The translations under genes were made by a program, and so were the position numbers. A DNA stretch of 64,000 bases, taken from NCBI GenBank assembly GCA_964035015.1, contig CAXIUP010000126.1, forward strand, positions 270,001-334,000, in the 5' to 3' direction. Below, in pieces: positions 32,701 through 60,540 of the stretch (its first letter is position 1; the number at the start of each line of letters is the position of its first letter). Origin of the DNA: Corallium rubrum (Eukaryota > Cnidaria > Anthozoa > Scleralcyonacea > Coralliidae). Below the pieces are notes generated by a model. That model was not told the DNA's origin. It searched no databases and worked only from the letters and a program-made list of their open reading frames with translations.

Positions 32701-34125
32701 CTGAAACAACAAAATAAAAAGTTGAAACGACAAAATAAAAAGTTGAAACGCAAAAATAAAAAGTTAAAAGTTAAAAATAAAAAATTGAAACGTCAAAATA
32801 AAAATGAAAAGTTGAAACGTCAAAATAAAAAGTTGAAACGCAAAAATGAAAAGTTGAAACGACAAAATGAAAAGTTGAAAAGTCAAAATAAAAAGTTGAA
32901 ACGTCAAAATAAAAATGAAAAGTTGAAACGTCAAAATAAAATGTTGAAACGCCAAAATAAAAAGTTGAAACAACAAAATAAAAAGTTGAAACGCCAAAAT
33001 AAAATGTTGAAACGCAAAAATAAAAAGTTGAAACGTCAAAATAAAAAGTTGAAACGCCAAAATAAAATGTTGAAACGCAAAAATAAAAAGTTGAAACGTC
33101 AAAATAAAAATCAAAAGTTGAAATGTTAAAATAAAAAGTTGAAACGACAAAATAAAAAGTTGAAACGCAAAAATAAAAAGTTGAAACGACAAAATAAAAA
33201 GTTCAAACCACAAAATAAAAAGTTGAAACACAAAAATAAAAAGTTGAAACTTAAAAATAAAAAGTTGAAACGCCAAAATAAAATGTTGAAACGCAAAAAT
33301 AAAAAGTTGAAATGCAAAAATAAAAAGTTGAAACGACAAAATAAAAAGTTGAAACGTCAAAATAAAACTTAAAAGTTGATACGTCAAAATAAAAAGTTGA
33401 AACGCCAAAATTAAATGTCGAAACGCAAAAATAAAAAGTTGAAATGCAAAAATAAAAAGTTGAAACGACAAAATAAAAAGTTGAAACGTCAAAATAAAAA
33501 GTTGAAACGTCAAAATAAAAATGAAAAGTTGAAACGTCAAAATAAAATGTTGAAACGCAAAAATAAAAAGCTGAAACAACAAAATAAAAAGTTGAAACGA
33601 CAAAATAAAAAGTTGAAACGCAAAAATAAAAATTTAAAAGTTAAAAATAAAAAATTGAAACGTCAAAATAAAAATGAAAAGTTGAAACGTCAAAATAAAA
33701 AGTTGAAACGCAAAAATGAAAAGTTGAAACGACAAAATGAAAAGTTGAAAAGTCAAAATAAAAAGTTGAAACGTCAAAATAAAAATGAAAAGTTGAAACG
33801 TCAAAATAAAATGTTGAAACGCCAAAATAAAAAGTTGAAACAACAAAATAAAAAGTTGAAACGCCAAAATAAAATGTTGAAACGCAAAAATAAAAAGTTG
33901 AAACGCCAAAATAAAAAGTTGAAACGCAAAAATAAAAAGTTGAAACGACAAAATAAAAAGTTGAAACGACAAAATAAAAAGTTGAAATGACAAAATAAAA
34001 GGTTGAAACGACAAAATAAAAAGTTGAAACGTCAAAACAAAAATGAAAAGTTGAAACGTCAAAATAAAAAGTTGAAACGACAAAATAAAAAGTTGAAACG
34101 ACAAAATAAAAAGGTAAAACAAAAA
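29705..34125. repeat. Nested tandem array: 21-base unit in an ~807-870-base higher-order repeat
   Basis: The basic unit is AATAAAAAGTTGAAACGNCA (21 bases, with C/G/A/T variants at the N and occasional AAAATGAAAAG inserts). Marker variants recur as a block: the word AAATTAAATGTCGAAACGCA occurs near 30034, 30862, 31669, 32539 and 33409, spacings of 828, 807, 870 and 870 bases. The third spacing lacks a 63-base (three-unit) segment. Since 21 is divisible by 3, both strands have long frames (KLKRQNK heptads forward; FQLFI-type reverse). They are broken at fixed places in each block (TGTTAA, ACTTAA) and are not considered genes. Confidence 0.95.
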
Positions 34126-35310
34126 TAAAAAGTTGTTGTGAACCTCCTGGGCTTCCATACAAGACTGAACGGACCGAAAAGCATCAAGCAACCCAGTGGC
34201 AAGGCATTTGGAGTGTAAGTTGGACCACGGTTCAGGTGTAGAATAAATGGACTGGTCAGAGTCGAAGCCAGAGTTGCCGTTGGTGATGGAGAACCAGCTC
34301 GTCGATGTTGGTTGATCGGTGACCTTATCAAGACCAAACTAGGACCGGACCAGAATCAGAATGGTGCCGTGGGGAAAGAAGGAGAGAGAAGAAAAGGATG
34401 GAGTGGAAAGAGTGAAAGACCCTCGATAACGAACCAAAACTGAATTGAACTGTTAGTGTGCGAGTTGCGTGTTTCCTTTCGTGTTGGGGGGGAATTTTGA
34501 CTTTAGAGTTTGAAAACGAATTACCAGAGGTAAATCGCCTATCCAGTGTCACCTGTCAAGGGCTATCGTCCTACCAGCTGTGAAGTCCAGGCGTTTTCTG
34601 CGTTGGTTCGTGTTTCATAAACTTTCGTGTGAACTGTTGCCTGCGTTATATGTACTGTTGCCTGTGAACTGAACTAGTCAATCCGTCAGACTATTTTAAA
34701 AGAACATTGTCTCGCTAGTCGCTATTACAGTATTACTTTTAAGTAGATTTACCGTGACCAGTTATATTATTTTAATTTTGTCAAGCGCGCGCCCGAGGAA
34801 GCCTATAATTTGAGTTAATTCTTGCTATAATATAGAGCGGTACACTAAGAAAATAAAAAAAAAATATTGAAAGAAACAAAGAAGAAAAACGCAGTTATGT
34901 TGGCAGAAACAGCGTAAGTCCGGTAGTAACGGCAGACCAACGAGATAGTAGCTGTATGTTAGTTGAGCACAAGTGAATAAGTGTCAGTGATGTCACGTTG
35001 TGAGATTGCGATGACAGAAATAGTCCTTTAGAAGATAGGGACGAAGAGTAGTGACAAGAATAATGTCAATTAGTATAAGCAATGGCTGAAGAGTAGTCAG
35101 TTGTACTGTAAGTCGTAACGTAAGGGCAATAGTCCAAATTTATGCCGTTCTGGTTACGTAGTACGTAAATTCAAATCATGATTCAATATAAGACAGTGTA
35201 GGATTACCAAAATGTTATAAGATCCAAGGCGCGATTTATTTTTATTTTTTATGCGTATACAAAGCTTGTCGTTTCTGTACTTTAATTCACTCTGGCTTTG
35301 ACTCTGCACT
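34126..35310. other. Unassigned sequence right of the array
   Basis: More mixed base composition than its neighbours. No frame has recognisable domains or convincing splice structure. It could be promoter or upstream sequence of the integrase-core gene, or a degraded element. Confidence 0.4.
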
Positions 35311-35857
<547 letters not shown>

Positions 35858-36419
35858 CATAGCGAGCCAAAAATGCATCTACCGGCATACTTCTTTTTTA
35901 ATGTTAACAAGAAATATCTCTCAATTGAAAGTGCGTGTAACGTAGCCAATATATCGTCTCGTCGTTTGGTTTCAAGTATTAGTGAAACTTTGTTGAATTC
36001 TTCATTGCCAGGGTCCCATCTTTTTTGTACAGAATGCCTTGTTTCTATGTTTTTAGTGTCTTCTCTATTCTATACATATACATATAAATGAATAATAATC
36101 GATCAGCAAAACCACCATAGCAGCCTCCTTATTCAAAACGTGTCTAACGGGGGATCTTTCATCCTTCAAATTAGCAACTACAGTACCTGTACAGTTTTTT
36201 GGTTATTTTGTGAACTGTAGAGTCTTCTGCTATGGCGTCCTCGCTTTCGTCGTAGCTTCCACATGCTGCTGCCATATTTCTTTATAATTATTCGTATGAA
36301 AATAAAAAAAAAATTTTTTACATGCTGAACAGTAAGTAATACAATAGAAAAACATTTATTGTCAGGCAAAGCGCTCACTATTTTTTAACCCATTAGAGGG
36401 AAAGAACGTATAATAGAGC

Positions 36420-36890
36420 TTATTAATATCACCCGGGTGAGTAAAATCGTCTGGCACTAAGATCTGTTTAAACGGATGTTTAAACAATCCATTTAAACAT
36501 TGACCTGTTTAAACATTGTACAACATTGTTGGATGCATGTTGGACGATTGTTGGATGATGTTATACATCGTGTTCAAGTACACAAAATAGACACTCAAAG
36601 TCAGCCAGAAATGAAATCATACCGGAATATTTGTTGGCAATGGCGGAAAAGAATTATATTGCGGTGATGCTGGCGTTTCATGAGTTGGTCGAATATATCT
36701 CTCATAAAATGTTCGCTGATGTTGAATAAAAAGTTTGAAATAAATTAAATTCCACCCAACATTGTTCAACATCATTCAATATTATCCAACATTGTGTTTA
36801 AACGGGTCCAACATGTTGCACCCAACAACGTAAATAGATAATGTTGGCCCAACACGTTGCAACCGTTTCAACACGCCTTTAGGAAGAATA
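36420..36890. repeat. Dispersed repeat, CCAACATGTTGCA family, copy 2
   Basis: Contains ACAACATTGTTGGATG, CCAACATTGTGTTTAAACGG and CAACATGTTGCACCCAACA, and ends near CCGTTTCAACACGCC. Shares words with the copy at 13720-13850. Its ends read as inverted TGTTTAAAC/GTTTCAACA. Probably non-autonomous. Confidence 0.6.
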
Positions 36891-36899
36891 AGATGATAA

Positions 36900-37290
36900 A
36901 TGCGCTCTCGCCCCTTAATGGGTTAAAGTTCATTTATACTTCTTTTATTGAATATCAAATACTTGCTGAAACAAGATTTCATTGTAATCACGACCGGTTC
37001 AGCAGAACCGAAAGCATTATTACTTTTTTATAATAACAAAAATGACATTGAAAAACATTATGACAAAGAATATACAAAAAGGTTACGCTTTAGAGCACCT
37101 TCTAACAAAAAATGCACCCAAATTTAAATAAAACAATTAAACTTACTATTTATACCGTACACATAAACGCAAACCTTAGCTGTTTAAAATTGAGTAGCTT
37201 TCTGACATATTGCTCCTTCCAGCTCTCTTTGGTTTGCTTTTTCTCTAATAAGAATAATAACAGAAAACTAAAATGCATAATGATACCCTA
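36900..37290. other. Non-coding sequence
   Basis: AT-rich with nothing recognisable. Confidence 0.4.
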
Positions 37291-37293
37291 TAG

Positions 37294-37395
37294 GTCCAGA
37301 GGTTTTCCTTAGTTTACGCAATGCACGTGAGGAAGGGAAATTACGGTTTTTCCTTCCTCGCGTGCGTTGCATAAACAACGGAAATCCTCTGGACC
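37294..37395. mobile_element. Foldback MITE
   Basis: GGTCCAGAGGTTTTCCTTAG and the inverse GGAAATCCTCTGGACC, with inner arms CGCAATGCACGTGAGGAAGG and CCTTCCTCGCGTGCGTTGC. Confidence 0.85.
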
Positions 37396-37540
37396 AAGGC
37401 TACCACTGCAACGGACATGCATTGATCTTTCGTATTCTAATGATGACAACTCATTACTCATTTAAGTTCTCATTAGACCTTACTCAAGGTGTAAAGAAAG
37501 GACGCTGTTAATATGCATCTTATACATACACGGAACATAC

Positions 37541-38882
37541 CCTTTTGCCTATTCAATATTGCCTCTTTCTCTTTGGCTTCCCAGTCATCAACAATTTCAG
37601 GAGTGTATGGTACTAAACGCATGAATTAAGCAAGCAAAATATATGTAAAAGTAAAACTTTCATCATCATGGTAATTCAAGACACTGGTAGTGGTACTTAC
37701 GCGATAATTGGCTAAATATTTCTTTTAATTGAACCTCTGTCTTGGTTTTCACATCCCTGCATCTTTTCAACTTAGTTTTCAGTAATTTACCTAGTAATTA
37801 TAAACATGCAATGAAAGACAATATTTGCTGATTGTTTTACAAATTTTATAAAAGGAAACATGATGGCTATGGTAACCATAAGAATAAAAGGAAGGTTTCT
37901 TTTGCATCAAAAATTACAGTACCACACTACATTAGTTACATGGTACATGTTCTTCTATCCCAAAAATCAATACGAACCAGCATTTCCAAAAAATTTTCGA
38001 GACAAATGCAAAAGTGCATCAGTCAGCAAATCTATTCTGCAACTGGCAGACATTTCTTTAGTTATAGACGAGAAACCACAAAGGTAGGCCTACAGCCTCT
38101 CGATAGCCTCACCGTCAGTAAGGCCAAGCCTTCAAGTCTTCTAGGCCTGAATTCCACCTGCATGTTAAAATTAAAATAATACAGTAATTTATTCACCTTC
38201 AGTATGTGGGTGTACAGTATATGTATATGGGTGCATGTACAAAAAATAATCGATCTCCTCCTCAGAGAAAAAACCCAGACAAATAAAAAACAAACACATT
38301 GAACTGATATTGTTGCAATAGGATCATCGCATTACATCTCCTTTCAAAATATTTGACTTCGTGTAATTGTCAACAAAGTCATCAACCACATCCTGGTCAG
38401 CAAACGTTAGACAGCCATGGTTTGGATCACTAAAACTGTTCCCAGCAGTTCTCTTTCTGGTCAGTCCAAAGCATGCATCCATGGAGTGAATTACAACACC
38501 AGATTCATCACTCTGCAATTACACAAAATGCAATCTATGACATCTTGTTGCATGGTGTAACAATATGTGCAGATTGCGAGCAAATGGTAATTACAGAGTA
38601 ATTTAGCAATTAATAATTTAGTAGAATTGATATAAAGACATGACTACTACATGTACACATACATGTACCAGTTGGCATCAATATACTGTACTTTGTATCA
38701 ATGACCAAGACTTTAACAGTATTAATTGCCTCTTTATTATCCAATTTAGAAGGGATGTAGCTCAATTAGAGATATACTAGCTGTCTCATTGCAAACTTAC
38801 TTGTGGGCATAGAGGACAGCTTGTGTAATCCACCAAGTCACTACTAACCAAATCTAATGTCCTTAGCCTGTGCTTAAAATAT
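37541..38882 (-). pseudogene. KDZ-superfamily transposase remnant, multi-exon
   Basis: Minus-strand exons: 38882-38801 (YFKHRLRTLDLVSSDL, then TSCPLCPQ), 38512-38336 (SGVVIHSMDACFGLTRKR, SFSDPNHGCLTF), about 38157-37990 (LTDGEAIERL, stop, AYLCGFSSITKEMSAS, RIDLLTDALLHL), 37790-37701 and 37612-37541. The CPxCP zinc motif followed by a D-x-x-F strand, and the DGE..ER.W...TKEM block, are signatures of the Kyakuja-Dileera-Zisupton superfamily of cut-and-paste transposases. The conserved Trp after ER is replaced by TAG near 38095, a G-to-A nonsense change. The N-terminal part appears to be cut off where the PLE fragment at 38940 begins. Decayed; no terminal repeats found. Confidence 0.75.
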
Positions 38883-38939
38883 CTAAACAAAAGTATTTAA
38901 TTATATTAACCAACCTACGCAAAATATAGAACAGTTGGT

Positions 38940-39660
38940 TCATCTATAATATAAACTGTGCAAAATTGCAAACTTATATCTTACCGATATTCATCGAATG
39001 ATCCACAATTAAGTCCTGCATACCTCATTTACTGTATCTCTTGCAGTAAATGTCCCATGCTTTACATCGGAGAAACTGGAAGACGTTTAGGTGACAGGTT
39101 TGTTGAACACCTTCGTGATGTCAAAAACAATGTGCCAAACAAACCTGTTGCCAGGCACTTCAACAGTGCCAACCACTCCTTTTCCAACATGAAAATCTGT
39201 GCCATTCAGCCCATTACAGGTTGTAACGATACTCGTCGTAAACAAGAAATGCGTCTCATTTACAAACTTGGTACCATTCACCCTCACGGCCTCAATGAGC
39301 GATTCTCTTTCATTTAGCTCACCCCACCACCATATTCCACACCTTTTCCTTAACCTTTTTCTGATGATTTAAATAGTAATTTATAACCTGTTTCTTTGCC
39401 TATTTGCAGGTAGCTGACCCACAATTGGGTCAGCACCTGCACACAGGCTAAAATTACATATTAATTTATTTGTTTACTTTGTTTTTATTGGCTTACATGT
39501 GTTCACGTGATCCCCATTGTAGCTCTGCTATAAATACGCGTGACCACATGTGAGTTGTTTACTAATTTCTCCTGACGAAGGGCCTTCGCTCAAAACGTCG
39601 AGAAGATTTTTCTCTGTTTTTCAGGCCAACGTGACTTAACCCTGGTAATATAAGTACTGC
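38940..39660 (+). mobile_element. Penelope-like element 4, 3' fragment
   Basis: 38958-39317 encodes a GIY-YIG nuclease domain: LIYCISCSKCPMLYIGETGRRLGDRF, cut short here to its key words CPMLYIGETGRRLGDRF and EHLRDV, with VARHFNSANHS following, then LIYKLGTIHPHGLNERF and stop. No RT precedes it, so it is 5'-truncated. Non-coding tail follows with a degenerate hammerhead at 39572-39600. Confidence 0.85.
39572..39600 (+). ncRNA. Degenerate hammerhead motif of PLE 4
   Basis: CTGACGA in place of CTGATGA, stem II GGGC/GCTC, AAAAC in place of GAAAC, then GTC. Two core positions are changed, so it is probably inactive. Confidence 0.5.
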
Positions 39661-40109
39661 ATAAATGTTTCTTATCATAAATAGAAGATATATATTATAA
39701 ATATATTATATACAGTTACCCATGGCAATGGGAATGGCCACAAACAGCCTCTTTATTATTTTACTCTGGCTAACACCAGACAATTTTACTCCTCATTGGG
39801 AAAGTACCCACCATCAATGGGTTAAATAAAATAGTTACAGTACAGTACAGTAGGTTATGTTGAACACAAGCTGTCAGTGTACAGACTTATCAGAGTACAC
39901 TACATAAAGTAACACAGAATGGTCTCGCAGACATAAAGGTGTAATATTATTTAATATTTTATACATCATTATTAGTTTATGTTATAAATCTCGATAAGTA
40001 TAGAAGACAGGGATCTAAAAATTGGCGTACAAACTCGATGTTACTATATCTTTCAACTGACAAAAAACTGTTAAGATCGAAAGAGTTGACTTCAGCCTCC
40101 AGTACCACC
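39661..40109. other. Non-coding sequence
   Basis: No gene or clear repeat apart from a short TACAGTACAGTA run. Confidence 0.4.
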
Positions 40110-40334
40110 TTAATTCAGACGAATTTATTTCGAATTATAATGCGACGTAAATGTGACGTCGAGTTAAAAGTCGAATTTCAGACGAATATAATTGTTTTTA
40201 CTTGGACTCGTGGAGCCTGAAAAATTACTTCTTGAAAATATGGCGGCGAATTGTCACAAACAGCGTCTATTGTGCGACGTTTAGCGCAGGCCTTATGCAT
40301 GCATGCATGGTTCCATGCACACGTTAATTATACA
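40110..40334 (+). repeat. Left inverted repeat of the 8.1-kb element
   Basis: Begins TTAATTCAGACGAATTTATT and runs to CACGTTAATTATA. Pairs with 48021-48232 with scattered mismatches and small indels. Confidence 0.85.
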
Positions 40335-40390
40335 CAACAAGACCTTGCAGTTTATACGTAGCCCTATTTTTTACTCTTGAGTGATTATAA

Positions 40391-43300
40391 TTAAGGCCCA
40401 TGTTTGAAAGGTGTTATATTTTCTTCAATTTGTTGCAAATACATTTGCCGAAATAATTCTGCTTGTTGGCTTGTTTTCGTCATCATCCTCTTTATTGTCT
40501 TGTGGTCTTTTTTAGTCAAAGATAAATTAATTTCTACTCGCTCATTGTACCACGTTATAGTGTTTTCATTTAGAGCTTCTCCTTTTTCAATAACTTTGTC
40601 AATAAGTGATTTTAACACGTATATTTCCATGGAGTTCCATCTTGGATCCCATGGTTTTTCTCCACACTGTAGCATATATATTCCAGACTCGTATATTGCA
40701 ATCACTAAAGTCATGTTTTTCACGCGATCGTAGAGTTGAAGAAGCAGTCTTAGTAATTGCAAAATCTGTCTTGGTTTTCTTCTCTGGTTTCTCGCCATGT
40801 GGCCTTTTGCAGTTAAAACAGTCACACAGCGTCGAAGATTTCTTCAGCGCACGGAAACATGGGCACTGTACACGACGTTCTCCGGGAACTTGGAAGCAAA
40901 ATGTTCTTTCTTTGTCTTTCTTTGCTGCTCCTCGACCACATCGACAGCTTTTTTGCTTGCCTGCTGGATTCGTTCAGGATTTTCAGAAATCATAGAGGCG
41001 CCTCCTGTATTTGTCTTCCTCGATTCTACCACAGTGTCATAATGGCCACATCCCGAGTGGTTAAATGCGAGGTAAATTTTGGACAGCTTATTAGCGCTTT
41101 CTCTCGTGGAACTACTGGGATAGTTTCCATTCTTGTCATAGAAGTGTAAAGCACAATGTTTATTCCAAGAACATTCGCAAGACCTATAACCATAATGTTT
41201 CCTAGTTCACCTGCAAAAACGCCGCTTACTTTGTAGGACTCTGCTAGCTCTCGGAACTATTTTTCGCAGTTCTGAATGACAAAATTTTCGTACTAGGAGT
41301 TTGCGTAGTTTGAGAACAGACGTTGACATATCTTCAAAGCTTAGATCTAAACTCTTTAAATGTTCTCTGTAACTTTCATATTTCTTCGAAGAAACAATTT
41401 GCTTTAAACCAAAAATAACGGAGGTAAAAAGGCAGTCACCATCAGTATTCGACTTCACGAGCTCCATATTGTAGGATGACAAGGTATTATCAAGGTATTA
41501 TTCAGACATTCTTCACTTGAGTTTTGTTCCGCACTTTTGCTGATGCAAGTTCCCAAAACAAATAGAGCTGGGCTTGACATGAGATTAAGGTGTTCCGTAT
41601 TGAACATTCTACTGCGCCCATTACAGCTGTCCACACTTTCCGTAACAGCAGCTAAATTTGCTGCTCTGTCTAAAATGTTTTTTACACTATCTTTGTCCAT
41701 TTTAAAATCAGAATGTTCAAACAAATCTTCTAAGTTTTGTTCTTCGTCGTCCCAACTGCAATTTGAAAACATGTTGCAATACGATGATGGAATCGTATCG
41801 TCATCGCTGTTAAAACTTTTCTCACTTGAAACTCCCACACCAAATTTCTCGTCTGCTTTAGTGTTCTGGACTGCTGACATATCAACGGGATCAATTACAG
41901 GAACCACTTTCAGCTTTTTACCAACAGCTGCTGATTTTCTTTTTTCATTCCACACATAGAGAAATGTTGTAAAAAGAGCAACAGCTAAATGCACACCAAC
42001 ACGCACTTTACTCGCGCTTTGACATAGACACTTATGGAGATTTTCATTTCGCTCAGTACCTCAACCGGGTGCGATATCTGACAAACAGTTCTTATTGATG
42101 TGCTGCCTTAGATTCTCAATTTCTTTCAAGGCCCCCAATGGCAAAACTGATTTTTCTTCAAAAGTTATGTCTTTCCATGTGAACACAAATTCATCCAGTT
42201 GTCTGTTCATTGTTTCAGAATCAGGAGTAGGTTTGGTGCGACTTTCCGCGTGATCATGCAGATGACGTAAAACAAGGGAAAATGCTTGGGCGCAACGGAA
42301 GGCAAATGGCTGTTGTTTAGGAATTTTTTTGACAATTCTTTGTACTGCATGAAATACATCTAATTTTACTGTTAACCCTACACCAAACACAGACTGAAGT
42401 TTTTTCCTCCACGAACAGCGGTTGTCTGTAAAGGATAAACTCATCAGTTTACCTTGACGTTCAACTCTTTTTTTAAGTCCTGTTAACAAATCTTCTACCG
42501 TCTTAAAAGCTGTACCATATAACTTAATTGCCAAGCTATAACACACCCGATATCATTCATGACACAGAACATGGAGTCAAATTGTTTTTCGCACCGTGAA
42601 TCACATTTTCACTTTGCTCCGATATTTGCCGCCACTTTAAATGTATGATCAATTGATATCCACTCTGCTGAATTTTCAATCATTTCTAAAGTATAAAAGT
42701 TGGGTTTTTTTCAAAAGCGTAGATGAAACAATCGCGTATTATCGTTATACTGGGTGCTTAATATTCATCTGGTAAGACAGAGGGAAATGTGTCGTATTCA
42801 TTATCACAAGTTGGATTTTTTTCTCTAGATAAAAAATATTGCAGATCTTCTTCAAAACAAACACGCTTTCGTGTGTATGCCTCTATGTACATCTGACTCA
42901 TCGATGAGTGAATATGATCCATTTTCAGACCAGATGTAATATATGATACGATGCTTTCTTGGACATCCCTAGTCACACCTGTGATGTGTGACAAAATAAA
43001 CGGCCTTCTTGATAGTGGGATTATATCTAAGATAGCTGGATTGTGTGCGATTATTTCAGCATGTTGTCCTGGACATCTATAAACTCTGCTCACTAAATAA
43101 ATCGGACCATTTACCCCATATAAAATCCTACATGATTCTCGTTGGTTATGGCAATCTTTCCAATGAGTGGCACGAAGCAGATGACTGTCAGAACTAACTC
43201 TACATTCTGATCTAGGACACCTGATGGCACCGTTTAGGCATGAAAGTTGGTTGAGTGGATCCCAAAACAACAACACAGGACGCATGTAATCATAAGGGCT

Positions 43301-43489
43301 TGGAATCAAGGGATTACATGAACTTATCATAGGAATCGGTGGATGAACATACAAAGGAGCTGGACAGTCTCCAAACTGTTTTATAGTATTCGCTATATAA
43401 TGGTGATGCTGGTCTAGTAGATTAATGCATTGCCCTTGTTGATACATATACAGAGAAAAAAATAGTACTAGTAGGATATGCCTCTCCAT
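40391..43489 (-). pseudogene. Transposase with Cys-rich head, DDE core, OTU protease and CXC zinc domain (decayed)
   Basis: Read on the minus strand from ATG 43489. First 243 codons: Cys-rich, DUF6729-like region (RCPRSECRVS, then GPIYLVSRVYRCPGQHAE). A TAA near 42755 and frame breaks follow. DDE-like core: WISIDHTFKVAANIG, LSFTDNRCSWRKKL, VKLDVFHAVQRIVKK, then CLSDIAPG-stop-GTERNENLHK and VHLAVALFTTFLYVW, a pattern known from fish and marine-invertebrate transposase proteins. OTU cysteine protease domain from 41465: MELVKSNTDGDCLFTS (catalytic D and C), GELGNIMVIGLANVLGINI, and HSGCGHYDTVV (catalytic His), in three frames. Then a tesmin-like CXC domain (KSCRCGRGAAK, RVQCPCFRALKKSSTLCDCF) and a Lys-rich C-terminus ending EENITPFKHGP. 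At least two stops and four frame changes. Function when intact: transposition; the OTU role is unknown. Confidence 0.8.
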
Positions 43490-43936
43490 AGTTAGTAATG
43501 ACAGTAGATATACTAAAGTATCGATTGTTCTTTAACTTTATTGCTTTGTCATATAATATTTGGCCAATAAAACGAGCATTGTGGGATCATCTCATTGGTT
43601 GTATATATTGATAATAAGATTAGGGAATGAAAGGAATGATTAGGAAATCCATTTAAAGTAGTTTTAGATCTTGAGTCAAGATGAACAGCTTGTGAGGAAA
43701 TGATCGTCGTTTACAATAATGCTGATAAGATTTGCAATGTGCATGCACAAACTCATCCAATTAACATTTCTACTCAAACTTTAGATAAAAAATAACCCAC
43801 CGTGTGAGGCGTGAGATAAGAAAATGTGAGGCGCGAAATAAGAAAATTTAGGTCAATAACACCTTTCATCACAAAGATTAAATAATAGGCGGGAAAATGT
43901 AACCAATCAATATTCGTGTTTGCCTGTTGCAGCGAA
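43490..43936. promoter_or_regulatory. Divergent promoter interval of the 8.1-kb element
   Basis: About 450 bases separate the start codons of the two divergent genes and must contain both promoters if the genes were expressed. No specific motif identified. Confidence 0.35.
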
Positions 43937-44789
43937 ATGGCGCAAAATAGCGCGAAATTCAAAGCACCAAAATAACAAACAAAATAAGCGTGCATTCTCA
44001 GTGTATCATTCACTAATCTCTTGCTGTCACACTATCACTAGACTCGGTTCTTCAAGTCGGAAAAGGAAAAGCAACGCCATCGACCTTCATGATGAGGTTG
44101 TGAAAGCTTTGGCAGTAGAAGCGAGTGAAACCCATTTAGACTGGGGGATAATGTTGCTCCGGTGTATTTTACAAGTTGGTTAGAAATATTTGCGCGGTCC
44201 CATGTTGTTGTTAAAGATATCATGTTCTTGGCAATCCTTCCAAGAATATCTGGTTTGTTGGGTTCTCGAACATGTCTTAAATTGTCGGAAGGTTACCGAG
44301 AAAGTTTGAGATGTTTCACTCTGTGTCTCGCTCCACCTGACGCTGCAAAATCGCCAGCAAATAATCACGGTGGCAAACTTCCAATATCGTTTGTTGAACA
44401 CGAGAACAGTGTTAGATTGACAATCGACAAGTTTACAGAAGTTGGATTATGGCAGCATTTAATCGACAACGATGGAACGGCAGTCATCATTAAAGATGAA
44501 TGTATCAAACACGGAAGCAAATTTTAAATGAAAAGGAGATAGGAACTTTGTGTCGCTTGTATGATGGCGATTCCTTGTTCGTGACAACAGGATCAAATTC
44601 TAATCCAGTCGTGGTGGACAAAACGACCGTGGCACTTGGCGGATTTGTACAGGTATGCTTTTGAACTATTATTTGGTCAAACTTTTGCACCAAACGTCAT
44701 TGTATACTTTGCCTTTTGATTTGAAAATTGGAAACAAATTTATTATAGCTAACGTTCGCTATTAAAGTGTTATATAGCAGACTCGATCA

Positions 44790-44945
44790 TCTCGCATAAC
44801 TTGTGAAGAACCGGGCGGGAATCGTTATCCTAGCACAAATATTTACGTTCAGAGTAAAAGACGAAATAAAGCCATATATATTAACAAAATTTATTTATTA
44901 ACAAAAAGAACTAACGTTTCCCGCTCTTAAGTATATAGACCTCTT
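44790..44945 (-). mobile_element. PLE 3'-end fragment in intron of the DUF3987-like gene
   Basis: CGGGCGGGAATCGTTATCCT, AAATAAAGCCATATATATTA and AGAACTAACGTTTC match, in order and orientation, the 3' end of the PLE family seen at 15070-15215 and 60420-60535. Only the extreme 3' end is present. Confidence 0.65.
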
Positions 44946-45654
44946 AAACTGCTGCCGAAGACAAGCCCAACAAGACTTGGGTCGAGGGTTGAGTGTAATA
45001 TTCACCACGTTAAGTAAATTGTTTCGAAGCTGTTCTTATCGCGACCCTGATCGTTTGCCTATAGGCACGGCTATATAGGAGGCGGCAGCGACACCGTGGC
45101 GCGATCAAATCATGGTGATCTTAAGAATGCATTCGTGCATTTCCTGATTTCTCTTCTGGGTTACCTGTCTTGTATGTTTCGTTTACTTAATTGCCCACGG
45201 CTTAATTATTAAGACAACAAATGAATTTCTAACCAAATTATTACTTTTACGACTATATCAAATATTTCAAAAGGTGCATGATCTGTTTTTTTACACAATA
45301 TTTGTTTGTTTTTGCACCTTTAATACACCAGAATGAATAGCCTTTCAAATGACATCGTGCTATACGTATATAGCTTCTGAGGTAGCAAATGATCGACTCG
45401 GCGCGACCAAGTCATAACAGTAATAATGTCTAATTGCCTTGCACTCAGTGAAGAGTACAAAAAGCCAATGCTATTAAGAGTTACGGAATCCACAAGTAGT
45501 TCGGATCTACTAATGTCACTCGGATCAAAGGCAGAATTTAGTTGGTGCAAACATTCGTGGAAAAGAAATATAGAGAAAATGTTCTCAAATAAATACATCA
45601 AAAAATAGTCGAGTCCATGGCTTGCCTTGTGCTAACTATCACATTTAATACTTG

Positions 45655-45655
<1 letters not shown>

Positions 45656-45701
<46 letters not shown>
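45656..45701. repeat. (TA)n microsatellite
   Basis: About 23 TA units in the intron of the DUF3987-like gene. Confidence 0.95.
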
Positions 45702-45705
<4 letters not shown>

Positions 45706-46339
45706 TGTATTAATATGTATACAATTTTTTTATGAACACAGGTTAAACATTTTCTGGTTGATCTTTATCCCCTAATGTCCGCTGGGCAAGATGGCTTTGA
45801 TGCCAGATTTAACGTCGCTATCGTTAAACCCGAAGCTCTAACTCGGAAAGAAAGCGCTAGTTTTGAGATATCTCTTAAGAGAACAAAATTGCAAGATCTC
45901 AATCAGCTTTTTAATACCATTTATTGTTACCACAATGGAGATGACATCAAAATTGAATACTGTCTTGACGAGGAGGCCTTGGCAGAATTTGATAACTTCG
46001 ATGAACAAGTTTGTATGCAGTTAAATTCCAATTGGCAGACAGGCAACTTGGTAACAAGAGCCACAAAAGAACGTCGCCATGTTTTACGCTGGACAGTGAT
46101 CTTGTACGTTCTTTATCAATACACGCGAAGGACTCTCTTTGAAGCATACGGACCAATCTCTACAAAAATATGTGAAACAAGCAATTAAATTGAATGAGTA
46201 TTTCACGAAACAAAAAGATATCATTGGAAAGGTTAGTTTACAAAATTGCTAGTATTTTCTTTAACTTCGATAATTTAGGATTTTTGTTGAGATATTGAGC
46301 GTCAAAATTATTGTAAATAAATAATTAACTAATTAAATA

Positions 46340-46705
46340 AATAAATAAATCGTAAATCTTTGGAACTCACTACCTTCTTCGATTAAACTTTCTTCTTCAT
46401 TTAACATTTTTAAGTCAAGCACTAATAATTATCTTGTTCAGACCTTTAATACTTGCTTTGATGTAGAGAATGTTTGTACTTGGAAATTAATTTGCTCAAA
46501 ATGTCACAAACATGTCTCTCAGCCTGTCAAATCATCTGTTCATAGATGTTTTTGTCCCCATGCAAAACTATACCTATGTAAATATATTTTAAATTATTAT
46601 TTTCGACAGTTTATCTAGTTGGGCGTTGAGCCTGCATGTTATAAACTTGCCTCATTGTATTTCAGATATAATTTTTTTGTTTTATTCAGTACAATGAAAG
46701 TCGGG

Positions 46706-46740
<35 letters not shown>

Positions 46741-46760
46741 ATATAAATAAATAATAGAAA
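46340..46760 (+). mobile_element. 5'-truncated non-LTR retrotransposon (LINE) 3' end
   Basis: The frame at 46351 reads LWNSLPSSIKLSSSFNIFKS, then NNYL, the usual C-terminus of jockey/CR1-type RT proteins. About 250 bases of 3' UTR follow, then a TAAA-repeat tail (46706-46755). A second TAAA run lies just upstream (46322-46350). Sits in the intron 46233-47460 of the DUF3987-like gene. Confidence 0.7.
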
Positions 46761-46881
46761 ATGAAAAAAATAGAACTTGATATACGGATATAACACACAT
46801 TCATACGGTATAAACATTAAGTATATCAAATACATTAGTTCAAAAATTAACTTAGTGATAACACTTTGACAGTGACTATTT

Positions 46882-47025
46882 AACAAATAGAAAATCGCTT
46901 GCATGGCTCTTGCATGTACTGTGATAGAAACACAAAAATGCCTACACATTCTTTTCCGGTTGAAATTGCATCGTTCGTGTTTCTATCACAGTATAGTCAC
47001 AAAATCCATTTTCTATTTGTTTTAT
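46882..47025. repeat. Foldback element
   Basis: TTTAACAAATAGAAAATCGC...CTGTGATAGAAACAC is mirrored by GTGTTTCTATCACAG...CATTTTCTATTTGTTTTA. Confidence 0.8.
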
Positions 47026-48020
47026 AAAATAACTAAACAAGGATAAGCCACCAACGTGACCGAAAGTCTGCTGATGAATAATGGCGCAGTCAGATAATTA
47101 CACCAGTGATTATGTGAGATTTAACCAAACAGAGCATACGTTGTACAATATCAAATGAAAATGACGTCAAATTAAAGTACTCTAAGTGAAAATGGATCTC
47201 AATCAGAGGGTGCGTATAGGACAACTGTTATTTTTAAATTTAAAAAGAAAGATTTTTGCAAAAATAAAAAAAGTTTTTGTTAGCATCGCGTCATTTTACA
47301 GGTAAATTTTAGTTTTCACGACTTCTTATAATCCTATTAATACGATAAATAAAAATAGATGTAAAATATACAGCTGCGTTGCATACATTCAATATCCTTT
47401 ATATAAAGTTCTAAAAACTTTCCAATTTTTGTTTATTATATTTTAAATACCATCTGACAGGTGCCAACGTAGATTCGACAATAAAAGTTTCCCCAAAAAT
47501 TCTTACCTACCATGGTCCAGTTGTTGTGGCAAATTTGGTTAGAGAAAAATTTAGCCCCAGAAATTTAATGAGAAATCGGCCGACCTCAACAGAAGTTCAG
47601 GAAACTATGGCGTCTCTCGAGCAAGAACGGTTGGGCTTCGTTGTTCGCAGTGGATGTACTGTTGCTTTTATCAAAGAGCTACCAACACACGTGGACCATA
47701 CTCTTCTCGCAAGACGAGATATCCGCCAGGGAGTACGGCAAATGCTTTTCCACCCAAAATATGGACATTTCGAACAGGCTTCGAGAGAGACTAATGGCAA
47801 ACGACGAAAACGCTGCACGAATCCTTGCTGCGGACTTAGAAGACAGTAACGGTGAAGAGTAATAAACATACCTGCACAGAATGTGCTGGCGGCATTGGAT
47901 GCTTTGTACTTTTTAGGTTGACATTGACAAATAACTAGAAACAACATTATCTTCATATATAAACGTTTTTGCACTCTTCATATAACTATACGGCTAACGT
48001 ATAAACTAAAAGGTATTGTA

Positions 48021-48265
48021 TATAATTAACGTGTGCATGGAACCATGCATGCATGCATAAGGCCTGCGCTAAACGTCGCACAATAGACGCTGTTTGTGAC
48101 AATTCGCCGCCATATTTTCAAGAAGTCGTTTTTCAGGCTCCATGAGTCCAAATAAAAACAATTATATTCGTGTGAAATTCGACGTTTAACTCGATGTCGC
48201 ATTATAATTCGAATTAAATTCGGCTGAATTAAATGTTAATTGTGCGACATTTAGCGCAGGCCTAA
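48021..48265 (-). repeat. Right inverted repeat of the 8.1-kb element
   Basis: Inverse of 40110-40334 up to about 48232. 48058-48265 alone is bounded by AGGCCTGCGCTAAACGTCGC and its inverse, so a separate 208-base foldback repeat of this family probably exists in the genome. Confidence 0.82.
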
Positions 48266-49310
48266 AAATGTAATTTATACATTATTAAGTTAGATAAACT
48301 ATGGCATCTCATCAGTAGTCATATATAATAATGCTCTTGCAAAGAACTGTGTCAATATGTACAAATCAGGAACAAAATACAAAATTAATAGCTAATTTAA
48401 GACGTATAACATTCAGAAAGATTGTTATGCTAAGAAACAAGATAGTATATATTGTATACTATATATACATGTTACTGAAAAGTTATATTATATGTTAAAG
48501 TTTCAATGTGTTTTTTTTATGATGTTATTAATTAATAACTAATCGGTTTGTGTTGGGTTTATGAAATATGAATAAACACATTTACATCATGGTTATACTC
48601 CAGTCTAATATTATAACCGCATGCACGTGCTGTTTCTCTTTTTGAAAATTGCTCCGACAAGTAAAAAAGACCAAATTCATACCGCTGACAAATTCAAATC
48701 GTCCGACGCATAGCCAATGGCCATATAGGCATATGTTAAAACTGTTCCTGATTAACACTGATTCAAGTGAAGACAGCAAAAACGCAGAAATACTAAATAC
48801 TTACATTAGATTTACATTTTCTTATTGTTCAAAATGTCATAAAACATATTTTGTATCTCTTAAGTTCTATCATTGACTTGTAGAAATGAATCAGTGCTGT
48901 ACCTGAAATGTTCGGCATGCATATTATACACCTTGACACTTGACAATAATGTGTGATTAGGAAATGTCAAACTTGACTCCTAGTAGAAATGACGAGTAGA
49001 ACAATACGAGGGTGGCCGCGCTTGTTTAATAGACTTTCTGTAACAGAGGTCGTCATAACGACCCAGTGTACTCACCCAGTGTTTAGTAAATCTGCAGCAA
49101 TACGGTATACACAAGGTTTACAATTAATATAGTGGCAATTTACCTGAACACATTGGGTCGCGATTGCGCTTACTGCATGCCCAATATATATGAACATGAG
49201 TTAGTATCAATACTTCACTTGTAAATTTACTCGCGCTGTGTAGTCTTTTTTGACAAAATTTAGACGTAACTTGTATTCTTATACAACAGTATAAGGAAAA
49301 TTGCAGCGCA
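48266..49310. other. Non-coding sequence right of the 8.1-kb element
   Basis: No gene recognised; AT-rich. Confidence 0.4.
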
Positions 49311-49324
49311 TTAGAAATGAAACA

Positions 49325-49640
49325 TGATCCCTACTCTGGCCAACTGGCGCTCTGGCCAAACTGGCACTCTGGCGCTCTGGCAGCAACAGACAAATATATG
49401 TTACTCTGGCCAAACTGGCACTCTTGCCGCTCTGGCAGAAACAGACAAATACATGTTACTCTGGCCAAACTGGCACTCTGGCTGCTCTGGCAGAAACAGA
49501 CAAATATATAATGTTACTCTGGCCAAACTGGCACTCTTGCCGCTCTGGCAGAAACAGACAAATATGTTACTCTGGCCAAACTGGCCACTCTGGCAGAAAC
49601 GAAGAAATATATGTTGCTCTGGCCGCTCTGAATCAAAATC
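49325..49640 (+). repeat. Tandem repeat of ~62-70 bases, about five units
   Basis: Units contain TTACTCTGGCCAAACTGGCA, then CTCTGGC...GCAGAAACAGACAAATA. Lengths vary by small internal deletions. The Trp/Ser-rich frames across it are by-products. Confidence 0.85.
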
Positions 49641-49659
49641 ATAGCGACGTTCGTTGCTA

Positions 49660-50420
49660 ACTTCCGTGATGTCATGTGTTACGTGTATCTCGCATGTTCT
49701 TAACTACGCTCCTCTTTATAACCATCTATGGCTTGTCTTATAATGCACAGCAAAACGTGTTTTACATCTTCTAGATTATCCGAGAAGGCGAGAATAAACA
49801 GTGATGTTTAGTCTCGTGTGTTTTTAGTGATTAATTTATTTCAGCAAACAGAATTGCACAATCAGTCATTTAGTCATACGCCACATGTTTGCGCGCATTT
49901 GATTATTTCTGTAGACTTTAGTTCATGCAATTTGCATGCTACAAATAAATGAATTACGGAAATTATAACTAGTTTTAAATGAATATTACCTTTTGGTTGC
50001 TGCGCAATTTACCAACAATATCACCATTCACCAACGACTCACCCTTCATAACTTTATTTATCAATTTTGAATGATGTACAATGTGTATGGTTTAAAACAA
50101 CGCGCCTTGCTATAATTCCCCCTGTTTGAAATTGAAAACCTGACTCGTGCTCAGTGTTCATCGTATCGCACGTGTGTTGGCCAATCAGCTATCAAGCGGT
50201 GTCCCTTAGAAGCGCCGCTTGCTTTTGCTCTATATTCGTCCAATTGGAGGCTCCCGAACCTAAATTAGCGCATGCGCAATCGTTGATTTTAAGCTCTGAA
50301 GGCAAGCGGTGCTTGCCTTGGTTAATAATCAAGAAATAATTAGAACTCTTAAGCAGGGTGTATCAAGATAAGTCTTCTTAATCCACTTGACTCTTTCTAG
50401 ACAAAACATCTAGAACAATT
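49660..50420. other. Non-coding sequence
   Basis: No gene supported. A 61-codon frame at 50154 has no recognisable features. Confidence 0.4.
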
Positions 50421-50423
50421 ACG

Positions 50424-50693
50424 CTAACACTAACACCAACACCAACACCAACACCAACACCAACACCAACACCAACACCAACACCAACACCAACACCAAC
50501 ACCAACACCAACACCAACACCAACACCAACACCAACACCAACACCAACACCAACACCAACACCAACACCAACACCAACACCAACACCAACACCAACACCA
50601 ACACCAACACCAACACCAACACCAACACCAACACCAACACCAACACCAACACCAACACCAACACCAACACCAACACTAACACTAACACTAACA
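50424..50693. repeat. (ACCAAC)n hexamer microsatellite
   Basis: About 43 near-perfect CAACAC/ACCAAC units with CTAACA variants at both edges. The Val-Gly and Val-Leu minus-strand frames here are artefacts. Confidence 0.97.
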
Positions 50694-51097
50694 CATGAGT
50701 TACACATGCTAAATGTACACGTGCCAATAACATGAATATTGTCCTTCCGAATATTAGAACTGAACCCGGAAAGAAATCTTTTGCATACCAAGGGGCAATT
50801 CTTTCTAATAAGTTACCTAATGATTTGAAGACAGAACAATAACTTTTAAGATTTAAGTCTAGCTGCAAAGGTTTTAACTTTGACTTTTAACTTGTACATA
50901 TCTTTCATATTTTATAGACCTTATACTATTTTTAGGTAATTATCATAGGTTAATGTAACAATATTAAAATAGTTTTAGTTTTGTGGACAGAGACATCGAC
51001 AGGTCCTTGGTTGATACCAGCAATTGATGTTGTGGAAATAAGTTTTTAACCTGTGTAAATATGATATTATTATTATTATTGTTATTATTATTATGTG
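50694..51097 (+). mobile_element. LINE 3'-end fragment
   Basis: The frame reads VLPNIRTEPGKKSFAYQGAI, then LSNKLPNDLK and LLRFKSSCKGF after a stop, matching the C-terminus of jockey/CR1-type RT proteins (the SF-Y-GA and LPNDLK words). It ends in an ATT-rich tail at 51064-51095. Immediately follows the hexamer tract. Confidence 0.6.
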
Positions 51098-51121
51098 TCA
51101 ATTAATGCAATTATGTTTTAG

Positions 51122-51640
51122 GTTGTCAAAATAGCCCTGCATACAAGTCGAAGTTTTGTGAAGGTCACAAAGACTTGATGTCCCCATTTCAAGATGACTC
51201 TTTGGAGATGGAAGAAGGCACCTCAACCGTTGTTAGCAATGGCATTGACAACTGTTCTGGTGACATTTTCCCTGTTAGAGTGTTTGAGGAGAGAGTTACT
51301 AGGTCAGGAAGTTTTTATGTGGTATTTATATGGTGCGATGTTTGTTCTGTGCATTACTATTTGTGGGAGACTATTACATGTATATAGCTGTTTGCATGAA
51401 TCACATTAGACAGCGCTGCATGATGGTTATTGACCAATTTATTTTCCGTTTTTGGTGTAGGTGTTGTGGTCAAGTGGGTTAAAGAGTTGGGTCAAAGGTG
51501 TTAATTTACCGAGAAGGTGCAAGAGTTGTTTTGCAAGGGGAAGGAATTTGAACATGTGAGCGTTGATTTGACTGAGTATGGTCAAAAGCAGTGTGAGCTA
51601 CGCGTACTCGATATGGCCAGTAAAGATGTTGAAGGAACAG
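51122..51640 (+). pseudogene. CxC-type transposon exon(s), probably KDZ-related
   Basis: An acceptor at 51120 opens a frame reading CQNSPAYKSKFCEGHKDL, then DDSLEMEEGTSTVVSNGIDN. A GC..tP..KS+FC..H motif is frequent in Cys-rich regions attached to KDZ-type transposases. Coding quality falls after about 51300. Partial; the owner element is not defined. Confidence 0.4.
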
Positions 51641-52019
51641 TGATTCCAAAAAGGTTGGGGTATAATGTTTAACATATTATACACTGTATAAATCATTGTG
51701 CTGTGCAGTGGCAGCTTTAGAATATAACGGCCGTATCCCATTGTGTGTCGTAAAGGGCGACTAAAAGAGGTTAGTGCCAACAAGGGCTTACAACTGTATA
51801 AAACCTGCCACCAAAATGACATGCATTTTTTTTGTGAAATAGTAATATGCGTTGAGTTGAAATCACTGTGAACCACAGAGTTTTTACTCGGACAACCTGT
51901 GGTAGCGCGAGTCTAGGTTTGTCCGTCTATGGTTTGTTGATTCATATTCCCATGTTTAGAACTTAGTTCTCCACCGCGATATTGGCCAATTACCTTCGCG
52001 GAATGTAGGCACGAGAAAC

Positions 52020-54196
52020 GGGTGACGATTTTCCATGGGCAGAGAGGGAGGCTGAGTCAGCGATACAACAGCGGTGTCACCCAAGAATGTCGATGAATAC
52101 TAAATCGCATATTCCAGGAGGCGTGTAAGATTACCCGATTATCCTGTAAAACAATTCCTGCTGTGTTCCTGAGCAATACCATGGCAGAAAAGGAAATAAA
52201 ATATCTTACAGAATACAGATATCTTTGATAAAATAATGTTCGATTTACTGGTGGTTATTTATGGCAACGTACGACTATTAGGAAATCAACATAGTATTAG
52301 GAAATCAAATAATCAATACTAATCCCCTCGTGTTCGTGTGGTTCGTGAAGTGGGCCTCGCGACGCGAGGGTACTAATCTCGATGGAGTGGGCAGTAAGTC
52401 CGGTTGGGGATTGTACCCATGTTGGCGGTTTGGAGTATCCATTTGTGTATATATATATATATATATATATATTTATTTATATGTAATGATCAACGGAGAC
52501 CATGTTGGGGATCCGTGGGGTGATGGTGGCTAAAAGGGTTCTGGCCTATTGCTGTTCGGCCTGTTCCCTTCGTTCGTTCGCTTGTTTCTTTCTCTTGTCT
52601 TTCCCTTGAATATGTCTCAACATTTCTAGCTATCCTATAAACATTTTTTCTTCGAACTTTTGTAGTTTTGTACTCAAACTTGAACGAAAATGATGTTGTT
52701 GACGTAAAAGACTACACTGAAAAAGGAGAACCACAGTTCTTAAATTACATCAGAGTTTATAGTCGAAGAAACGAAAAGAGCGACTCGTAATTTCAAGGCT
52801 AAACACGGTGTCGGGAACTACATCAGCGGAGAGAGGACCAGCGAAGAGAGAGGCTAGAAATTATGCCAGAAAACACAGCAAAAAGAATAGCACAAGAGAA
52901 AGAGAGACTGTGAAGAGAGAAACTTTAATTCGTGACTGAGAGATGGTATGAAGGTACAGAGATATTTTTTAAAACATTTATTTATTAATAACAAAAGAAA
53001 ACGTATTTAAACAATATATCTCTGTGTAGGAATTGTTGGTGGCATACATATGTACTGTACAATCATGTATTTGACATTTTCATACATTCACTGTACTGCA
53101 CAGTATGCATTATGATTTATTATAAATTCATCAATTGGAGTAATGCCTGGCTATTCTTCCCTGGAATGTCAGGCATAATTTGCAAACTTTTTATGCCTGG
53201 GAGTGGGGCGTTTATCTACAGTACTGTTCGAGATACTGTTTACCTAAAGCTGAAAAAAATCTGGTTGCTAATTTAGTCAAAATATTGGGTTGTCAAAATA
53301 TTGTATTTTGTGCAAAAAGACCATATAATTTGTACTGGAATGCTACAATGGGAGGTACGGGACTCCCATATATTGACTATATAGGCCTATAGGGATGTGC
53401 CACTGGAAAGGGAATGGTTTTCATTATCACAGTTTTGATTTGGTGCAAGGTCTGTTCTTATATGCTGGCAGTCATTTACTCCTTTCTTTCAGTTTGGAAC
53501 AGGGTACCATTTTTAGCCATTGTGTGTGAAGCCAATTTCTGTCTGGAGTAACCAACATAATTTAAGGGTTCATAATTTGAGGTGCCCCTGGGATTGAAGG
53601 CAGAGTGCATTAATAATAATAAACAACGAACACGAGGGGGTTTGCATTAATGTATTTCTAGTAGTATTAGGAAATCAAATAATCAATACTAATAGTATTA
53701 GGAAATCAACGGGAACTAAGACCCAACGGTACAACTTTAGAATACCCGTCCAGTTTAGTAAGTTTACTATTTACATATATATTAAGGGTCAAATTGCGGA
53801 AAGTTCATCATATACAATTGCTTCGTTCTATTTTAAAACCAACTTTAATTTGATAACAATCAACAAGTACACAATATAAACCTTCGACATTATATTTAAA
53901 GAGATTTTGGAGCAACCTCATGCTTTGTATTGTATTGTCATATTATTCATTGTATTGTATTTCTGGCCTTTAAATGCCGTTTCAAAAGTGGATGGGTATG
54001 CTAAAGTTATTCCGCTTCGAAGATGATGTAATATGTATAAACCACTGAAAACTCTGTCTCTATGAACAAGCTCGGGAGTTTAGCCTGGCCATCTGGCAAG
54101 TAGCGCCGAAAATACGATCAACATTCTTGAGTGAAACCGCTGTTGTATCGCAGACGCAGCCAGCCTCCCTCTCCGCCCATGGAAAATCGTCACCCA
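52020..54196. mobile_element. Inverted-repeat element of ~2.2 kb, with nested insert
   Basis: 52020-52096 (GGGTGACGATTTTCCATGGG, AGAGAGGGAGGCTGAGTCAG, CGATACAACAGCGGTGTCAC) is mirrored by 54122-54196. No transposase was found inside, so probably non-autonomous. Contains the inner element 52324-53640 and TTAGGAAATCAA direct repeats. Confidence 0.72.
52324..53641. mobile_element. Inner element flanked by CCCCTCGTGTTCG inverted ends
   Basis: Starts CCCCTCGTGTTCG (52324) and ends CGAACACGAGGGG (about 53628-53640). The word AGTATTAGGAAATCAAATAA occurs on both outer sides (52294 and 53669 regions), but part of it is repeated locally, so a target duplication cannot be sized. Contains a TA microsatellite at 52447-52472 and no clear coding. 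Confidence 0.5.
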
Positions 54197-59150: not shown

Positions 59151-59385
59151 CTGCCTCCAGGGACATAGCCAGGATTTTGAAAGGGGGGAGCTGAAATCAG
59201 AGTAAATTTTTAGGGGGGTCTGGGGGCATGCTCCCCCAGGAAATCTTGAAACCGAGAGTCACTGAAATACCATTTCCTGGCTTTTGGAGGAAGATTTTAC
59301 AGACTCTAAAGGTTAAAAAACATCATATAAAATACTCAAAACACGCAAACATCACATAGATACTCAAAATGCATACACTCAGTAC

Positions 59386-60540
59386 ATGTATATTCTTGAC
59401 ATCCAAATTCAACGCTTGAATGGCAAATTTGTAACTTCCGTTTATCGTAAACCAACGTTTACTGGGCTTTTCACAAATTTTGAAAGTTTCATACCACTTG
59501 TGTATAAAAAGGGCTTAGTAATGACTTTACTTTTTCGTTATTTTAACATTTCTTCCTCCTACACAATTTTTCACGAAGAACTAGAGGAATTTAAAAGTAT
59601 CATGCTTCAAAATGGTTATCCTATCAAATTTTTAGATAGTTGTATTCGCAAATTTCTTGAAAAAATTTTTTGCCCAGCGTCTAAAATTACCATAGCACCC
59701 AAACGTATCATTTTATTTACACTTCCGTTCACCGGTCAACACTCCCTTCAAATTCGCCAACAAATCGTTAAGCTCTTTGCTTCTGCTTTTCCACAAATTC
59801 AACTTCGTGTTGTTTTTAAACCTATTAGACGCCTTTCAAGTTTTTTCCGTTTTAAAGATCAAATTCCTTTCGCTTTAAGATCACGCGTAGTTTATAAATT
59901 TAAGTGTCATGACTGTGAGTCATTGTATGTTGGTGAAACCATTCGCCATTTACACACGCGTGCTTCTGAACACATGGGAGTTTCGGCTTACACGGGAAAG
60001 CCTCTTTCTTTGAGTTCCTGGTCTGGAGTTTTAGCACACCACAAAAAAACCGGCCACCCTGTTTCTTTAACAGATTTTTCTATTCTAAGCTCTTCTTCTT
60101 CCAATTTTGAACTCCTTCTTAGAGAAAGTCTGCTTATTAATAAGTTAAATCCTTCACTCAACGCTAAAATCAGTTCTCTTCCTTTAAACTTATTTTGATT
60201 TATACACACGTTTTTCTTTATATTTTTCTATACTTGTCTTGACACATAACTGAAAACATTCTATCATACCTGTTACTTCACACTGTAATTTATTAACTGT
60301 CACTTCCACCCCTCTCTCAGTTACTCATTTCCTGTTATTGTAAATATTTTGGCATATAAGTCGAGATAACCTTGTAAATAATTATTCACTCTGAAGATGT
60401 TGCAGGATTAGCAACGAAACGTTAGTTTTAATAAAAATTTGAAATAACTCATGTCTCTTTCAATATGGGGCTTTTTAAAATTATATGCTGGGCTTTAATA
60501 TTCCTGACAAGATTACGCTTTCCGCCTGGTTCGTCTATTG
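59386..60540 (+). mobile_element. Penelope-like element 5, 5'-truncated
   Basis: 59386-60198 encodes the C-terminal 270 residues of a PLE protein: the thumb/linker region (VTSVYRKPTFTGLFTNFESF) and GIY-YIG nuclease (VYKFKCHDCESLYVGETIRH, then SEHMGVSAYTG), ending LINKLNPSLNAKISSLPLNL. The RT palm is absent. The 3' tail ends CGCCTGGTTCGTCTATTGCT, shared with PLE 2. Reading is open to the start of the insertion. Confidence 0.88.
60391..60426 (+). ncRNA. Hammerhead-like motif of PLE 5, core mutated
   Basis: CTGAAGA (one change from CTGATGA), stem II GTTGC/GCAAC, CGAAAC, GTTA, GTT. The U-to-A core change predicts little or no cleavage. Confidence 0.55.

Follow-up and report, generated by a model that had tools for sequence, protein, structure and literature searches.

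What occupies positions 40110 to 48265 of a 64,000-nucleotide stretch of Corallium rubrum DNA, where two divergent genes lie between inverted repeats? This stretch, referred to here as the window (C141:270001-334000 of the searched 474-Mb genome assembly), had been described in an earlier note as carrying an 8.1-kb transposon that unites a DDE-OTU-CXC protein with a DUF3987 gene. Our analysis indicates that the window probably holds the decayed remains of a large DNA transposon with two genes, whose transposase would work together with a phage-type helicase or ATPase that the element itself encodes. The evidence is sequence-based and consists of the anatomy of the element, its target duplication, its domain content, the recurrent pairing of the two genes and low ratios of nonsynonymous to synonymous substitution (dN/dS); from it we infer the mechanism.

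Where does the element begin and end? Repeats do flank the genes on both sides, with an inverted match between 40110-40367 and 47988-48232 at 88.8% identity over 259 columns. However, what had been described as ~220-base inverted repeats at both ends are inner remnants of terminal inverted repeats (TIRs) of 2.0-2.7 kb, and they consist largely of a nested 204-bp repeat. As element termini, the 220-bp repeats are ruled out by the homology of other copies beyond them and by a copy on C1 of 13,723 bp. The remains of the TIRs in the window are as follows.

40110-40367, plus strand: left TIR remnant, 95% identical to the C1 copy; it lacks the outer part present in other copies.
47988-49624, plus strand: right TIR, incomplete, about 82-90% identical to copies on C1, C166, C18 and C1:72.1M.
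48060-48265, no strand assigned: nested 204-bp repeat (48060-48263) with 25-bp inverted ends, in the right TIR; its left counterpart is at 40110-40293.
49350-49594, no strand assigned: minisatellite of the TIR, 4.4 units of 55 bp; similar units occur in the TIRs of other copies.

To the left of 40110, no homology was found in any other copy with window 36000-53000 as the query. Rightward homology to the C1, C166 and C18 copies extends to 49624, ending inside the minisatellite, and the right end of 48265 proposed earlier is explained by the edge of the nested 204-bp repeat. This repeat is a putative miniature inverted-repeat transposable element: a genome search with the repeat stretch returned at least 60 matches (40 of 1,078 candidates scored), and about thirty dispersed short copies are among the matches listed. 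The terminal GGTTGTTTTACC sequence is not present in the window copy, which has lost both element ends and carries frameshifts in both genes; the earlier description of two divergent decayed genes on opposite strands is confirmed.

The complete relative (C1:2108573-2122295) gives a size of 13.7 kb in place of 8.1 kb and carries both genes between its TIRs, which bears out the proposal that a single transposon unites them. Its TIR arms of 2,725 and 2,024 bp are 98.1% identical across 2,013 aligned columns, its 5' end reads GGTTGTTTTACCGTG and its 3' end is the reverse complement, and a perfect 8-bp target duplication, TAAAATCT, lies on each side. The C1 copy is itself interrupted, since ~2116815-2117963 has no counterpart in the window or C1:72.1M copies. 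A foldback-like derivative on C18 (15061435-15066714; 5,280 bp) is mostly TIR sequence with neither gene, and has its own 8-bp duplication, AAGAATAC, on each side. The C166 and C1:72116221 copies have one end each, the latter adjoining Ns. Comparison of target duplications, which the earlier note had suggested, thus gives a constant 8 bp in both of the copies that have both ends. Duplications of this length fit ordinary DDE transposition, and no sign of replicative transposition appeared in the evidence gathered here.

What kind of transposase does the element encode? The minus-strand gene contains the DDE-like motifs, OTU Cys and His boxes and CXC block that had been noticed in it.

40391-43531, minus strand: transposase gene with stops and frameshifts; the order is N-terminal Cys-rich region, DDE core, OTU, CXC, C-terminal tail.
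42043-42650, minus strand: predicted DDE core motifs, IDHTFK (D at 42650-42648), FTDN (D at 42426-42424), LDVFH (DxxH at 42360-42349) and TERNE (E at 42045-42043).
41042-41434, minus strand: OTU domain, with Cys box NTDGDCLF (Cys at 41434-41432) and His box GHYD (His at 41044-41042), in different frames here.
40773-40958, minus strand: CXC zinc-binding block; the MSL2-CXC matches of the C1 copy (E = 2.9e-4) and of L056 (1.4e-4) stay below the Pfam cut-off.

L056, an open homologue on C25 (955 aa listed, within an open frame of 1,072 aa), aligned as a tblastn query with four window pieces from 43513 to 40773 at 51-66% identity, and the frame of the C-terminal tail runs from 40391 to 40843 on the minus strand. 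Both L056 and a second relative that is 39% identical to it (L058, 500 aa) keep the motifs as IDHTFK or SDHTFK, TDN or IDN, LDxFHAVQR and RNE, that is, D, D and E with DxxH after the second D. These DDE/DxxH residues, assigned by eye, are predicted to form the catalytic triad, in a putative RNase H-like fold. The OTU part of the C1 copy reaches 28.5 bits with Peptidase_C65 (Pfam cut-off 24.3); the Pfam OTU model gives 19.5 bits there and 17.8 in L056, where no other OTU-type profile matches, both under its cut-off of 23.3. CXC-type Pfam matches are limited to MSL2-CXC and TCR, both below cut-offs. The DUF6729 label suggested previously was rejected: with PF20499, looked for in the N-terminal part, the window pieces, L056 and L058 all lack a match at E <= 1.

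The fusion of core and OTU is general in this genome, as 67 of 72 core clusters have an OTU-part match immediately downstream on the same strand, with the proviso that a match to the linker-OTU-CXC query used is not proof of an intact OTU domain. At one locus (C103:133137-134048 and 140140-141036), a 2,370-aa open frame contains the OTU-part match and the core match is ~6 kb upstream in a broken frame, possibly a rearranged or fused gene. Pfam transposase families gave no match to the window-type transposase (window pieces, L056 and L058), nor did the integrase-core profile to L056 or L058. PDB searches returned nothing convincing, and no relatives of the transposase were confirmed in the viral contigs scanned.

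Could this nevertheless be a variant of the Kyakuja-Dileera-Zisupton (KDZ) group that carries OTU and DUF3987 parts as passengers? We consider this rather doubtful. The 8-bp target duplications resemble those reported for Zisupton (PMC12730594), KDZ proteins have zinc-chelating Cys clusters (PMC12062965), and four of the genome's 32 KDZ clusters lie within 15 kb of a DUF3987 match, one of them with E = 2.9e-10 (L057). However, the other three KDZ matches are weak (E 0.001-0.005), and neither the window pieces nor L056 or L058 match the KDZ transposase profile (PF18758) at E <= 1. The KDZ-associated CxC zinc cluster profiles likewise find nothing in the transposase of the C1 copy or L056. Compared with the KDZ protein of L057, the hhalign probability is 0.3% and the best blastp E is 0.19, which is weak evidence given the shallow alignment. 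Direct KDZ membership of the window-type transposase is therefore rejected as far as Pfam and this shallow comparison reach. The window type also differs from KDZ elements in its OTU domain, its 2.0-2.7-kb minisatellite TIRs and its DUF3987 partner, and the low dN/dS of DUF3987 genes, given below, speaks against a passenger. At the L057 locus itself, the KDZ transposase and a DUF3987 gene (L041) lie near the C-terminal part of a tyrosine recombinase (L057:2-316, C1:70581601-70581915; Phage_integrase E 6.7e-8), possibly a further combination of mobile genes.

What, then, is the partner of this transposase? Its plus-strand gene is DUF3987-like, as had been proposed.

44040-44652, plus strand: exon 1, with two frameshifts; DUF3987 E = 4.1e-6; donor GT at 44653; start inferred from the C1 copy.
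45742-46231, plus strand: exon 2; DUF3987 E = 8.1e-4; acceptor AG at 45740-45741, donor GT at 46232.
47461-47862, plus strand: exon 3, C-terminal, with one frameshift and the stop at 47860-47862; winged-helix-like by eye.

The junction of exons 1 and 2 corresponds to a continuous reading in L030, and the stretch homologous to exon 3 adjoins DUF3987 in L030, L031-L034, L048, L049, L035 and L027. Scores for DUF3987 (PF13148) in the two window pieces, 26.7 and 19.1 bits, each fall under the Pfam cut-off of 27, which is exceeded by the C1 copy (34.1 bits) and by L045 (76.2) and L042 (75.6). All four DUF3987 proteins scanned against PHROGs gave matches; L028 matches a phage DNA helicase family (2.3e-20), and L045 matches phage primase families in their C-terminal half (best value 2.5e-8). 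No primase half was seen with the plus gene, NCBIfam gave no match for six proteins, and no relatives were confirmed in the viral and genome contigs scanned for DUF3987.

The P-loop is the defining feature of the DUF3987 family. At ~44330-44353 the window reads a degenerate APPDAAKS, and since the C1 copy has the same reading, this is more than the decay of a single copy. Canonical P-loops (APSGAGKT, GPSGIGKS) occur in other DUF3987 families here, along with a Walker-B-like motif, CVDEA; of the 14 rows of alignment A2 that span the site, 8 are canonical. The degenerate P-loops suggest that ATP hydrolysis may not be required in every family.

Such P-loops would be easier to accommodate in a regulator than in a motor, and the main rival on mechanism holds that the DUF3987 protein is a target-selecting, transposase-activating ATPase rather than a helicase. 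The division of labour would be the one seen in IS21, Tn7 and Mu, where a DDE transposase has a dedicated ATPase, IstB, TnsC or MuB (PMC11208146); here too, one element contains a DDE-type transposase and a separate P-loop gene. We regard this role as unlikely, because in sequence the protein resembles DUF3987 and the helicase and primase families of phages, and no IstB, TnsC or MuB family was found in the Pfam, NCBIfam or PHROGs scans of the proteins. The window type also differs from these bacterial and phage systems in having no detected homology to them, an 8-bp duplication and a eukaryote-like host.

Is the association of the two genes a property of this family alone? The search for the DUF3987 family gave 80 matches in 52 clusters, and that for the linker-OTU-CXC part 106 matches in 94 clusters. 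An OTU-type transposase match lies within 15 kb of 33 of the 52 DUF3987 clusters, where uniform placement expects 0.31; when the DUF3987 clusters were placed at random within their own contigs, 3.7 on average and never more than 9 were paired over 2,000 trials. On contigs over 5 Mb, 14/24 are paired (0.12 expected, maximum 2 at random). For contigs of unknown length the largest coordinate seen was taken as the length, which biases the comparison towards chance. Adding the core matches brings the paired clusters to 34/52; among the remaining 18, four have one of the KDZ-profile matches described above, including that of L057, within 15 kb. The pairing is thus not due to chance, and it reappears in families of this genome that have diverged from one another.

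Orientation is constant within each of six groups of DUF3987 loci that are nearly identical (91-99% at the nucleotide level) and include two or more paired copies. Gene spacing is constant in four of them, as in the convergent copies on C13, C61, C79, C8 and C82 (4,501-4,741 bp), and variable in the other two (5.2-24 kb and 6.4-12.8 kb). Copies this alike point to recent movement or, in some pairs, to duplicates in the assembly; the DUF3987 loci on C29 and C82 are 100% identical. In the L045 family, the boundary falls within TA-rich repeats. That DUF3987 genes and transposases merely gather independently in repeat-rich regions is scarcely credible: many matches do lie on small contigs, and orientation and spacing vary among families, but the excess persists on the large contigs, same-family copies keep one orientation, and the C1 copy, by holding both genes inside its TIRs and one target duplication, contradicts this account for the window family.

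Several observations weigh against a dedicated two-gene transposon with a phage-type motor. There is neither an OTU-type nor a KDZ-type match within 15 kb of 14 of the 52 DUF3987 clusters, two of which have a transposase match 21-24 kb away, and 41/72 core clusters are without a DUF3987 match within 15 kb (31/72 have one). The latter count is tempered by the Pfam-based DUF3987 search, which failed to list the window's own plus gene and therefore misses members. Orientation differs from family to family (13 divergent, 13 convergent and 7 tandem), and loci or copies within a family do not count as separate events. Besides the window family, some others also have a degenerate P-loop (6 of the 14 covering rows of A2), and the intact L056 falls under the Pfam cut-offs for both OTU (17.8 bits) and CXC (22.4 bits).

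Are the two genes maintained? Between the C25 and C166 transposases, dN/dS is 0.16 (543 codons), with 0.13 for the OTU part and 0.33 for the CXC part; for two pairs of DUF3987 genes the values are 0.065 and 0.092. Between the C166 and C1 copies it is 0.49, which fits decaying copies. These ratios are to be read with dS > 1.5 in four of the six finite comparisons; in five more (the core of C25 versus C30 and four DUF3987 pairs), dS was saturated and gave no ratio. By this measure, relatives of both genes evolve under purifying selection.

DUF3987 proteins occur in bacterial and viral replication modules, and to our knowledge they are not known from eukaryotic cut-and-paste transposons. Each part has precedents by itself, with OTU domains found on transposases, Cys clusters in KDZ proteins and DUF3987 within primase proteins. 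The DUF3987 domains of primase proteins are predicted helicases of mobile-element replication, according to Kazlauskas and co-workers (PMC5862659); the domain here is homologous to these, but belongs to an intron-bearing transposon gene beside a transposase. Ginger1, an animal element for which Table 1 of its description gives lengths of 2.6-7.1 kb and TIRs between 44 and 270 bp, also has a transposase with a C-terminal OTU domain; its Gypsy-integrase-like DDE core is not matched here, and no DUF3987 partner figures in the passages of that description cited here (PMC2836005). OTU domains are present in Helentrons as well (PMC6431247). A DxxH motif is described for hAT, P, MuDR, Kolobok and Dada, with target duplications of 4-10 bp (PMC3706591); the same paper, of 2013, places Zisupton with the superfamilies that have no DDE transposase. 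The window type shares with this group the DxxH after the second D and the long duplications, and differs in the absence of a Pfam transposase match, the OTU-CXC tail and the ATPase-like partner. Neither DUF3987 with a eukaryotic transposon nor the full combination of these parts was found among the open-licence PMC papers listed (titles, abstract starts and cited passages); Repbase lay outside this search, and an existing family name is possible. Tentatively, these elements may form a separate eukaryotic DNA transposon lineage, in which a DDE/DxxH transposase-deubiquitinase fusion is joined by its own phage-derived helicase-type ATPase, as a counterpart of the division of labour in IS21, Tn7 and Mu.

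How might a two-gene transposon of this kind move? The Cys-rich and CXC parts of the transposase would bind the long ends, and the enzyme would cut and paste with an 8-bp stagger. The OTU domain may deubiquitinate the transposase itself or proteins of DNA repair; such roles, countering ubiquitination or acting on repair factors, have been suggested for transposon-borne OTU and Ulp1 domains (PMC2836005). The ATPase-like partner would act as a motor with the transposase, most likely by opening the double helix at the element ends or in the insertion gap.

The window holds further features outside the element. Retroelement remnants lie at 4882-8164, 24849-26911 and 59317-60198, with reverse-transcriptase matches in the first two (E 1.2e-6 and 1.9e-7) and a GIY-YIG domain (1.6e-5) after the second. 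All three look like Penelope-like elements, the third by eye and without a Pfam match. A type I hammerhead ribozyme (Rfam RF00163, E 5.2e-6) is found at 10083-10130 on the plus strand, ~2 kb downstream of the first remnant. At 29705-34135, a 4.4-kb array of ~204 copies of a 21-bp unit has open frames on both strands, the plus frame encoding a coiled-coil-like repeat, KNKKLKRQ.

If the conserved pairing is true, a DDE transposon has recruited both a phage-type motor and a deubiquitinase. The pairing opens to testing both the movement of large elements and the use of dedicated ATPases by eukaryotic transposases.

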